From contig NZ_JACYOX010000032.1 in NCBI RefSeq assembly GCF_015352955.1, forward strand, positions 1 through 64,000: a stretch of DNA of 64,000 nt. The letters are read 5' to 3'. This document shows, one piece after another, positions 15,742 through 18,792 of the stretch. The stretch's first letter is position 1. Each line of letters begins with the position of its first letter. The position numbers were made by a program, and so were the translations under genes. Under the pieces are notes generated by a model. It had not been told where the DNA came from. It ran no database searches and saw only the letters and a list, made by a program, of their open reading frames with translations. Origin of the DNA: Noviherbaspirillum soli. Lineage in GTDB: Bacteria; Pseudomonadota; Gammaproteobacteria; Burkholderiales; Burkholderiaceae_D.

Positions 15742-15780
15742 ACCCGCTTGCCAGGCTACCCGCCTGCAAGCGGGTTTTTT
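15742..15780 (+). terminator. Rho-independent terminator of glcB
   Basis: ACCCGCTTG at 15742-15750 pairs perfectly with CAAGCGGGT at 15767-15775. The stem extends inward through CAGG/CCTG with one bulge and is followed by six T (15775-15780). Confidence 0.85.
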
Positions 15781-15911
15781 GTCGAGGATGGCGCGCAGCG
15801 TCATCCCCATTGCGTTCCCTTGCCAGATCGCATCAAGCCGTATAATCAATTCCCGGCGCCGTTCCACCCACCCAAAGCTTGTACGCCCCCCACGAATCCC
15901 GCGGAGAATGC

Positions 15912-18404
15912 ATGGCAAACTGGCTTAGCGAAATTTCCGAAAAAAGCAGCGCATTCATGCCCCACGGGCATTGTTATCTCTGGATACCCAGCCTGCTGTG
16001 GATGCATGTGGTGTCGGATGCGCTGATCGGCATTGCCTATCTCGGCATCTCCTTTGTCCTCTACCTGCTGGTGCGGAAAATCAGGCTGCCCTTCAGCCCG
16101 GTGTTCATAGCCTTCGGCCTGTTCATCGGCCTGTGCGGCATCACCCACTTCATGAAGATATGGACGGTATGGCATCCGGACTACCTGCTGGACGGCCTGG
16201 TAAAGCTTGCCACCGCGGCCGCATCGGTTGCCACCGCCATCGGCCTGCTGTATATCCGGCCGCAAATCGAGCAAACCGTGGCGGCGGCCCGTCTCTCCGA
16301 AGAGCGCCGCGTGGAGCTGGAACGTGCCCACACCGAACTGGAAGCCCTGTACCGCAAGGTGAAGGAGCTCGATGAACTCAAGACCCAGTTCTTTGCCAAT
16401 GTCTCGCATGAACTGCGCACGCCCCTGACCCTGATGCTGGGTCCGGCCGAGCGCATGCGCGAAGATGCCGGCCTGAACCAGCAGCAGCGCCATGAACTTG
16501 ACCTGATCACCCGCAATGGCCGCAGCCTGCTGCGCCATGTCAACGACCTGCTGGACATCACCAAGCTGGAATCGCGTGAAATGCAACCGCATCGGACAAG
16601 GGTAGAACTGCAGCCATGGATCGAACAACTCGCGGCGCAGTTCGAGCCGATTGCCAGGCAGCGGCAATTGCGCTTCGATGTGGTGGCCGATGAAGCCATG
16701 CTGATCGAAGCCGATGCCGACATGATCGAGCGCGTCGTCATCAACCTGTTGTCGAATGCATTCAAGTTCACGCCAATAGGCGGCGAAGTGATCCTGCGGC
16801 TCGCGCGCGACGCCGGCCATCTGCTGCTCACCGTGGACGACAGCGGCCCCGGCATCGCCGAAGAAGCGCGCGAACTGGTCTTTGAACGCTTCCGCCAGGC
16901 CGATGGCAGCATCACCCGGCAATACGGCGGCACCGGGCTCGGCCTGGCCATCGTGAAAGACCTGGTCGGGCTGCATGGCGGCTCGGTGAAGGTTGATGCC
17001 AGTCCTGCCGGCGGCGCCCGCCTTACGGTGCAACTGCCGCTGAGCGCCAATGCCAATGCCGCCGTGCGGAATGCCCCACCCGCAGCCAGCCCCGCCACCC
17101 GGCTGGCGCTGTCGGCCATGCTGGAGGAGCTGGAGGAGCTGGGCCCGGCCGCAGCGGTCGAGCAGCCCGACGCGCCGCGTCCGCAGCGGCCATCGGTGCT
17201 GGTGGTGGAAGACAACCAGGACATGCGCCGCTTCCTGGCCGACACGCTGGCGCAGCACTACAACGTGGTCACCGCCGCGGACGGCCAGGAAGGCTATGAG
17301 CGCTTCCGGAAGCTGCAGCCCGATCTGGTCGTCAGCGACATCATGATGCCCCTGATGAGCGGCGAGCAGCTGGTGAAGGCCATACGCGGCAGCGGCGACA
17401 CGCCCGCCGCCACGCCCATCCTGCTGCTCAGCGCCAAGGCCGGTGATGACCTGCGGGTAAGGCTGCTGCGCGGTGGCGCGCAGGACTACCTGACCAAGCC
17501 CTTCCTGCCGCAGGAACTGCTGGCGCGCGCAGCAAACCTGGTAGCAACCAAGCGTGCAGGCGACCAGCTGCGCGGCGCGCTGGCCAGCGCCTCGCTGGAC
17601 ATCGAGGCGCTGGCATCGGAGCTGGTGACGCGGCACAGGCAACTCGAAGCCACGCGCGATGCGGCCGAGGTGGCGCGTGAACAGGCTGAACGCGCAAACC
17701 GGGTCAAGGGACTGTTTCTCGGCATGGTCTCGCACGAATTGCGTACGCCGATCGCCACCATCGACATGAATGTGCAGTTGCTGGAACGCAGCGGCGGCCT
17801 GCCCGACCCTGCCGCCACCCGCCTGCAACGCATGGCGCGCGCGACGCGCCAACTGGCCGGGCTGGTGGAAAGCCTGCTTGAACACACCCGCCTGGAAAGC
17901 GGGAAAATCGAGGCGCGTCCGGAGTCGCTCGATGTCGCGGCGATCGTGCATGAAGTGCTGGCCGCGCATGCCGACCAGGTTTCCGGCGCAGTGACGCTGT
18001 CGCTTGAGCCGCAGCAGACAGACCTGCCGCCCCTTGTCAGCGATGCCCGACTGCTGCGCATCGTCCTGGCCAACCTGATATCCAATGCCCTGAAATTCAC
18101 CAGCCAAGGTGCTGTAACGGTCCGATTGATGATGGAACGTGACGCACACGTGTTTGAAGTGACTGATACCGGGCAGGGCATTGACGAAGCTGATACAGCG
18201 CGGATCTTCCAGCCGTTCGAACGGCTCGAGCCGGTGCAGCACAAGAGTCTGCCCGGCGTTGGCCTGGGCCTGGCCCTGGTGGACCAGATCGTGCGGGCTC
18301 TGGGAGGCAGCATCACGGTGAGTTCCCGCCTGGGACTGGGCAGCCGCTTCCGCGTGCGCCTGCCCAGCCACGGCGTCCGTGAAACATTAACGCAACCGAC
18401 ATGA
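15912..18404 (+). CDS. Hybrid sensor kinase with ethylene-receptor-like membrane domain and two kinase modules
   Basis: An 830-residue protein. The start at 15912 is preferred because GGAG (15903-15906) precedes it; a start 11 codons upstream lacks a site. Residues 20-115 form three membrane helices resembling the ethylene-binding domain of ETR1-type receptors: Asp36 in helix 1 and Cys75/His79 in LCGITHFMKIW, the positions that hold Cu(I) in ETR1. There is no GAF domain. Then follow a coiled linker, HisKA-1 (His166 in FANVSHELRTP), HATPase-1 (NLLSNAFKFTP, DDSGPGI, GGTGLGLAI), a receiver (VLVVEDNQD, phospho-acceptor Asp476 in VVSDIMMP, Lys in YLTKPF), a coiled coil, HisKA-2 (His608 in GMVSHELRTP) and HATPase-2 (LISNALKFTS, DTGQGI, VGLGLALV). 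It is followed 13 bases later by a stand-alone receiver. The ligand is inferred, not shown. Confidence 0.88.
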   Translation: MANWLSEISEKSSAFMPHGHCYLWIPSLLWMHVVSDALIGIAYLGISFVLYLLVRKIRLPFSPVFIAFGLFIGLCGITHFMKIWTVWHPDYLLDGLVKLATAAASVATAIGLLYIRPQIEQTVAAARLSEERRVELERAHTELEALYRKVKELDELKTQFFANVSHELRTPLTLMLGPAERMREDAGLNQQQRHELDLITRNGRSLLRHVNDLLDITKLESREMQPHRTRVELQPWIEQLAAQFEPIARQRQLRFDVVADEAMLIEADADMIERVVINLLSNAFKFTPIGGEVILRLARDAGHLLLTVDDSGPGIAEEARELVFERFRQADGSITRQYGGTGLGLAIVKDLVGLHGGSVKVDASPAGGARLTVQLPLSANANAAVRNAPPAASPATRLALSAMLEELEELGPAAAVEQPDAPRPQRPSVLVVEDNQDMRRFLADTLAQHYNVVTAADGQEGYERFRKLQPDLVVSDIMMPLMSGEQLVKAIRGSGDTPAATPILLLSAKAGDDLRVRLLRGGAQDYLTKPFLPQELLARAANLVATKRAGDQLRGALASASLDIEALASELVTRHRQLEATRDAAEVAREQAERANRVKGLFLGMVSHELRTPIATIDMNVQLLERSGGLPDPAATRLQRMARATRQLAGLVESLLEHTRLESGKIEARPESLDVAAIVHEVLAAHADQVSGAVTLSLEPQQTDLPPLVSDARLLRIVLANLISNALKFTSQGAVTVRLMMERDAHVFEVTDTGQGIDEADTARIFQPFERLEPVQHKSLPGVGLGLALVDQIVRALGGSITVSSRLGLGSRFRVRLPSHGVRETLTQPT

Positions 18405-18417
18405 AACGGAGAGACGG

Positions 18418-18792
18418 ATGCCATGCAAGCACATCGTTGTGATTGAAGATGACACCGACTTGCGCGAGACGATGAAGGATCTTCTCGAGATGGAGGGTTT
18501 CCGCGTCTTTACCGCCAGCAATGGCAGGGAAGGCTTGCGCCAGATCGAGCAGAATGGCCAGCCCTGCCTCATTCTGCTGGATCTGATGATGCCGGTGATG
18601 AACGGCTGGGAGTTCCTGGAAACCTTGCGCCGAAAGCACACAGCGCCGCTGGCGCAAACGCCGGTGGCGGTGGTGTCGGCCGCGGCCGATATCGCCGATG
18701 TCGAGCGCGATTACGGCTGCAGCGTGTTGAAGAAGCCGGTCAGCCTGGAAAGCCTGTTCGCCCTTGCGCATGCGCATTGCGATCTGTGCTAG
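18418..18792 (+). CDS. Single-domain response regulator (CheY-like)
   Basis: A 124-residue receiver domain without an output domain: acidic pair in VVIEDDTDLRE, phospho-acceptor Asp55 in LILLDLMMPVMNGWEF, a switch Ser/Ala position in VAVVSAAAD, and the conserved Lys in VLKKPVSLESL. It begins 13 bases after the double-kinase gene and is presumably co-transcribed, so it is the likely final phospho-acceptor. Having no DNA-binding part, it should act by protein-protein contact or as a phosphate sink. Confidence 0.9.
   Translation: MPCKHIVVIEDDTDLRETMKDLLEMEGFRVFTASNGREGLRQIEQNGQPCLILLDLMMPVMNGWEFLETLRRKHTAPLAQTPVAVVSAAADIADVERDYGCSVLKKPVSLESLFALAHAHCDLC

Follow-up and report, generated by a model that had tools for sequence, protein, structure and literature searches.

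The window, the whole 64,000-nucleotide stretch of Noviherbaspirillum soli DNA that was analysed, comes from a 5.6-Mb assembly of 105 contigs and carries a gene pair for a large sensor kinase and a lone receiver. The frame upstream of the kinase gene, recognised from its translation, is presumably malate synthase G. The features of the locus are as follows.

15758..15775, + strand: hairpin and T run resembling an intrinsic terminator, separating the operon from the malate synthase G-like frame (scan; weak by count)
15820..15846, + strand: possible promoter with TTGCCA and TATAAT around a 15-base spacer (identified by eye)
15912..18404, + strand: sensor kinase gene, ETR1_N-HisKA-HATPase-REC-HisKA-HATPase, 830 aa, with ATG at 15912 and the stop ending at 18404 (frame translation, domain profiles)
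15993..16268, + strand: ETR1_N domain, residues 28-119 (Pfam, alignment, AlphaFold2); site residues Asp36, Tyr43, Ile46, Ser47 (Pro36 in ETR1), Ile72, Cys75, His79 and Lys98
16380..16574, + strand: HisKA 1, residues 157-221, His166 (Pfam, residue check)
16713..17045, + strand: HATPase 1, residues 268-378 (Pfam)
17196..17528, + strand: internal receiver, residues 429-539, Asp476 (Pfam Response_reg, residue check)
17694..17909, + strand: HisKA 2, about residues 595-666, His608 (domain profiles, residue check)
18030..18377, + strand: HATPase 2, about residues 707-822 (domain profiles)
18418..18792, + strand: stand-alone receiver, 124 aa, Asp55, 13 bases past the kinase stop (Pfam)

The hairpin is weak by count, as three terminator-like sites were observed against 2.2 expected in shuffles, and a promoter scan upstream of the kinase gene that required a spacer of 16-18 found nothing. 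The aligned first position of the kinase is Met in three orthologues. Pfam matches HisKA in two stretches of the kinase, HATPase_c in two stretches and Response_reg once (429-539), and finds one receiver and nothing more in the product of the downstream gene. The domain anatomy of the 830-aa kinase and of the lone receiver is thereby confirmed, and the two complete kinase modules with His166, His608 and Asp476, as well as the separate single-domain regulator, lie where the sequence-only reading had placed them. The pair is kept in the source genome and in three related genomes; in genome G059 it is retained, and the other neighbours from the window that were tested were not found in the 10 kb. 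Conservation in four genomes, together with the catalytic residues invariant in 18 of 18 family members, argues that the pair is not due to chance. Among the listed matches out of 158 counted in the source genome, only the window gene is full-length, the others listed being partial kinase or receiver matches.

The N-terminal region of the kinase is of the ETR1 type, as had been read from the letters alone. Pfam detects ETR1_N (PF25487) at residues 28-119 with an E-value of 6.6e-31 and 106.9 bits against a cut-off of 27. An AlphaFold2 model of the first 150 residues, made with 60 aligned domains, places helices at 26-56, 62-87 and 91-149 with a mean pLDDT of 91.9, in agreement with the three helices proposed earlier and, in number, with the three membrane helices of the ETR1_N family. 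A Foldseek search of the PDB with the sensor model gave nothing at E ≤ 0.001. For comparison of the binding site, 142 distinct ETR1_N domains were aligned with ETR1. Asp25, Cys65 and His69 of ETR1 align with Asp36, Cys75 and His79 of the window protein, as anticipated, and the ETR1 residues Asp25, Tyr32, Ile35, Pro36, Ile62, Cys65, His69, Lys91 and Ser98 correspond to Asp, Tyr, Ile, Ser, Ile, Cys, His, Lys and Ser, respectively. Of the seven residues that ETR1 needs to bind ethylene, one of which we take to be Tyr32, six are retained, and Pro36 is replaced by Ser47. C65 and H69 of ETR1 are linked with copper and I35, P36 and I62 are among the residues essential to bind ethylene (PMC6586836), a change of C65 or D25 in AtETR1 abolishes binding (PMC11819568), and the conserved Asp reportedly forms a pair with a conserved Lys (PMC13012798). 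To judge from the alignment, the window protein probably has an ETR1-type copper site. Ethylene would be a plausible ligand, weakened by the replacement of Pro36 by Ser47. The earlier proposal of a copper-dependent sensor for ethylene or a small hydrophobic gas thus stands as regards the aligned Asp/Cys/His site and loses ground at the seventh binding residue. A plant-hormone context via ACC deaminase (TIGR01274) was rejected, as the best match in the source genome scored 269 bits against a cut-off of 392 and none of five genomes rose above it.

The replacement of Pro36 is shared with a wider group. At ETR1 position 36, the 142 domains have Pro in 107, Ser in 23, Ala in nine, Thr in two and Gly in one. 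In a quick tree of these domains, computed from 112 columns, which are few for that many rows, the window domain falls within a 28-sequence clade (SH-aLRT 99). Pro36 is missing in all 28 clade domains, which have Ser, Ala or Thr, versus 7 of the 114 outside. Twenty clade members have the double-kinase layout and eight a single kinase, indicating that Pro36 loss is wider than the layout. Tree-based pairs numbered two or three on supported branches and gave no significance for a dependence between Pro36 loss and layout. Pro36 loss marks the clade, its coupling to the layout lacking significance. The copper/ethylene site also varies within the layout group, since at position 25 Asn stands in five of the 20 layout proteins of the window's clade, each of which also has Arg at 91, and one of the 20 carries Gly at 65. 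The Gly65 bearer, the Sericytochromatia member L118, has the copper-binding Cys replaced and the His kept and is a natural site variant. Across the 142 domains, positions 25 and 91 (ETR1 numbering) go together, with Asp/Lys in 116 and Asn/Arg in 10 of the 14 Asn-bearers; this pairing fits the reported Asp-Lys pair, but a tree-based test of the covariation had three independent pairs at supported branches, a number too small for significance.

Both kinases look active, as judged from conservation. The catalytic residues were aligned in 18 of the group of 20 (the window and 17 loci, with L076 and L124 left out), and His166, Asn282, Asp310, Asp434, Asp476, Lys529, His608, Asn725 and Asp752 are invariant in all 18, as are Gly754 and Gly756 of kinase 2. 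By a simple counting method applied to one species pair, the window and G002, dN/dS is 0.16 for the whole protein, 0.05 for the sensor and about 0.15 for kinase 2. Among eight segments, the sensor is the best conserved, with a mean identity to the window of 62% over the 17 other rows, and HisKA 2 is the least, with 44%. In the full-length AlphaFold2 model (mean pLDDT 76.7, pTM 0.50), a helix spanning 91-183 runs unbroken from membrane helix 3 into kinase 1. Further helices are modelled at 533-557 and 566-626, the latter leading into kinase 2, and pLDDT falls below 50 at 559-571 in the link between the receiver and kinase 2.

The lone receiver accompanies many of the layout proteins. Among 23 layout-bearing loci, it lies directly downstream, that is, on the same strand and within 170 bases of the kinase stop, in 13. 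In three others it is directly upstream, divergent upstream or 1.07 kb downstream (one each), and it was not found nearby in seven, among them L127, for which the downstream sequence covers only about 180 bases. Identity to the window's lone receiver ranges from 91 to 45% over the seven proteobacterial loci besides the window, with 91, 70 and 60% in the three nearest, and is 29-39% in five more distant loci, a level that any receivers might show. An Oscillatoria protein (L120:251-3337) has ETR1_N-HK-REC-HK-REC in one chain, with a further lone receiver gene downstream. The downstream lone receivers and this receiver fused behind kinase 2 support transfer of phosphate from kinase 2 to a receiver, as far as gene order and fusion can indicate. 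In a Phragmitibacter MAG (L173:267-3520), the gene for a Pro36-less ETR1_N kinase precedes a lone receiver gene, behind which comes a REC-PAS-kinase gene; this may be the same logic in split form, although the REC-PAS-kinase is of the HisKA_3 type.

The double kinase core behind this domain had been considered unusual, a view to be corrected, as the layout has both relatives and a precedent. PF25487 matches occur in three of the four genomes of the genus; in the larger, overlapping genome sets, those above the cut-off number 43 of 245 for the family, 25 of 399 for the order and 12 of 369 for the class. Matches in frames of at least 640 aa were read with home-made domain profiles, shorter frames being taken as too short for the layout, and L098 and L099, which lie below the PF25487 cut-off, have no such domain by these profiles. 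Within these lineage sets, the double-kinase layout occurs in four genomes (G000, G002, G003 and G059). With the orthologue alignment as query, named genomes of bacteria and archaea yielded 338 relatives, and the full layout is present in 20 of the best 80, a proportion that is no estimate of frequency as such a scan favours query-like proteins. These 20 belong to Noviherbaspirillum, Polaromonas, Methylibium, Lysobacter, Myxococcota, Bradymonadales, Bdellovibrionota, Sericytochromatia, Cyanobacteria, Elusimicrobiota and Verrucomicrobiota, and a Legionella anisa protein is complete except for a recognisable second HisKA. Of eight layout proteins besides the window's that were scanned with Pfam, seven have HisKA and HATPase twice each plus one or more receivers, and the eighth (Legionella) shows one HisKA. 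The patchy spread over phyla suggests that gene transfer may lie behind it. A relative of 40% identity and 97% query coverage, an overall match only, is found in a 1.2-Mb record of Kovacikia minuta in a plasmid collection.

When identical ETR1_N domains were counted once, 23 distinct layout proteins remained, Legionella included. A quick tree of 130 kinase modules puts the first kinases of all 23 on one side of a branch (support 97). The second kinases, with 22 rows, need four changes on this tree, which does not support a single origin of kinase 2. A full-length tree groups 20 of the proteins against two Verrucomicrobia and Legionella (100/100), and these three keep Pro36. The output domains linked to this domain in bacterial proteins are diverse, according to a review (PMC7700396). 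In the family, order and class genomes of the window, ETR1_N is joined to PAS, GGDEF and EAL in seven of ten proteins scanned (L081, L082, L084, L086, L087, L094 and L095), and an eighth, L043, has GAF-GGDEF; cyclic-di-GMP outputs are possible for the ETR1_N-GGDEF/EAL proteins.

The closest known systems each share part of this architecture. Plant ETR1 has the three-helix domain, the Asp/Cys/His site, a kinase and a receiver, and differs from the window protein in the presence of Pro36, a GAF domain and a single kinase module. AzoEtr1/AzoRR-etr1 of Azospirillum brasilense likewise combines an ETR1_N-type domain, a histidine kinase and an adjacent single-domain regulator (135 aa), probably in one operon, whereas AzoEtr1 has 525 aa, a PAS domain, one kinase and all seven residues, and its ethylene binding has been shown (PMC11819568). 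The cyanobacterial SynEtr1 and GeiEtr1/2 also place an ethylene-binding-type domain ahead of a kinase, but have phytochrome-like, GAF or PAS domains between and one kinase, and GeiEtr1/2 have all seven residues (PMC6682694). The double kinase core is absent from the ethylene receptors described in this cited literature. Leptospira LvrA has DHp-CA-REC-DHp-CA in a single chain of 832 aa, compared with 830 aa here, but is described with a cytosolic PAS input and no membrane helices, and its partner LvrB is a REC-kinase rather than a lone receiver (PMC5863495). The window protein scores 512.5 bits against the NCBIfam LvrA model NF047465, below the cut-off of 1200; the LvrA-type order with all phospho-sites is present, and the adjacent gene encodes a lone receiver, not a REC-kinase. 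Phosphorylation of LvrB by LvrA stimulates the autokinase activity of LvrB by way of its Asp56 (PMC5863495), and LvrB structures indicate that receiver phosphorylation frees the catalytic domains (PMC13269768). LvrB has its receiver directly N-terminal to the kinase core, as in window residues 429-822, but is a separate protein with an uninterrupted receiver-kinase helix, in contrast to the broken link in the window model (PMC13269768). The double kinase is part of a family of scattered distribution, for which LvrA provides a published precedent at the kinase level. The layout with an ethylene-binding domain was not found in the literature searched, supplements and most subscription papers being outside its scope, and may have been drawn in an earlier publication.

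The window protein can be viewed as an ETR1-type sensor set on an LvrA-like chain. In the mechanism proposed here, to which we give an even chance, the copper(I)-loaded three-helix membrane domain would be the sensor, and binding of ethylene, or of some other small ligand of hydrophobic or metal-binding character, would alter the third membrane helix, which would run straight into the dimerisation helix of kinase 1 without PAS or GAF. Kinase 1 (His166) would phosphorylate Asp476 of the internal receiver, the phosphorylated receiver would gate kinase 2 via the helical link in the manner of LvrB, and kinase 2 (His608) would phosphorylate Asp55 of the separate regulator as the output. Copper, ligand, direction of phosphate flow and gating are the parts that we infer. 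The internal phospho-relay of the sequence-only reading was a good guess, and the internal receiver may in addition gate kinase 2, which is likely by analogy with LvrA/LvrB. The ETR1_N match and its site, the modelled helices leading into the two kinases, the invariant catalytic residues, dN/dS, the linked receivers, the Oscillatoria fusion and the precedents AzoEtr1, LvrA and LvrB count for the cascade, and the replaced Pro36, the non-uniform site, the loci without a near receiver, the 29-39% identity of the distant receivers and the low-pLDDT link count against it. No assay of a clade member came to light in the literature searched.

Other readings differ in the ligand or in the wiring. With the same wiring, the Pro36-less clade might lack hormone-level ethylene sensing and read copper(I), another small ligand or only high ethylene, a serious contender that we nevertheless hold at rather below even. 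Pro36, which is essential for ethylene binding in ETR1 (PMC6586836), is missing throughout the clade and retained in 107 of the 142 domains overall, and AzoEtr1, SynEtr1 by published alignment and two Geitlerinema proteins are described with all seven residues (PMC11819568, PMC6682694). However, the window protein retains the other six residues together with Lys98 and Ser105, and has Ser, which may act differently from Ala, at the Pro36 position. The sensor is moreover the most conserved of the eight segments among the 18 members, so that some demanding function appears to be retained.

Hybrid kinases can use their own receiver as a phosphate sink. Given this and the completeness of both His modules, the two kinases could converge on the separate regulator, the internal receiver serving as a phosphate sink or as a brake on kinase 1; we consider this unlikely, as the receiver stands immediately ahead of kinase 2, a Rec-controlled kinase layout, and the LvrA/LvrB data favour activation by the receiver (PMC5863495, PMC13269768). 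Decay of kinase 2, or a purely structural role for it, is highly improbable. HisKA 2 is the least conserved segment, and Pfam detects no second HisKA in the Legionella anisa member, but all 18 aligned rows share His608, Asn725, Asp752, Gly754 and Gly756, and the single pair compared gives kinase 2 a dN/dS of about 0.15. Returning to the gated cascade, an extension to the whole branch can be offered tentatively and with some doubt: the widespread Pro36-less branch, in 20 of 28 members fused to kinase-receiver-kinase, might have left ethylene for another ligand or for copper, with one kinase switching on the next.

Only a small number of bacterial ethylene receptors have been tested; the ones in the cited papers keep all seven binding residues. 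The Pro36-less clade is a natural experiment on Pro36 and on ETR1-type sensing outside plants. The fused kinase-receiver-kinase would allow a sensor, a receiver and possibly a receiver-gated kinase to be studied in one protein.
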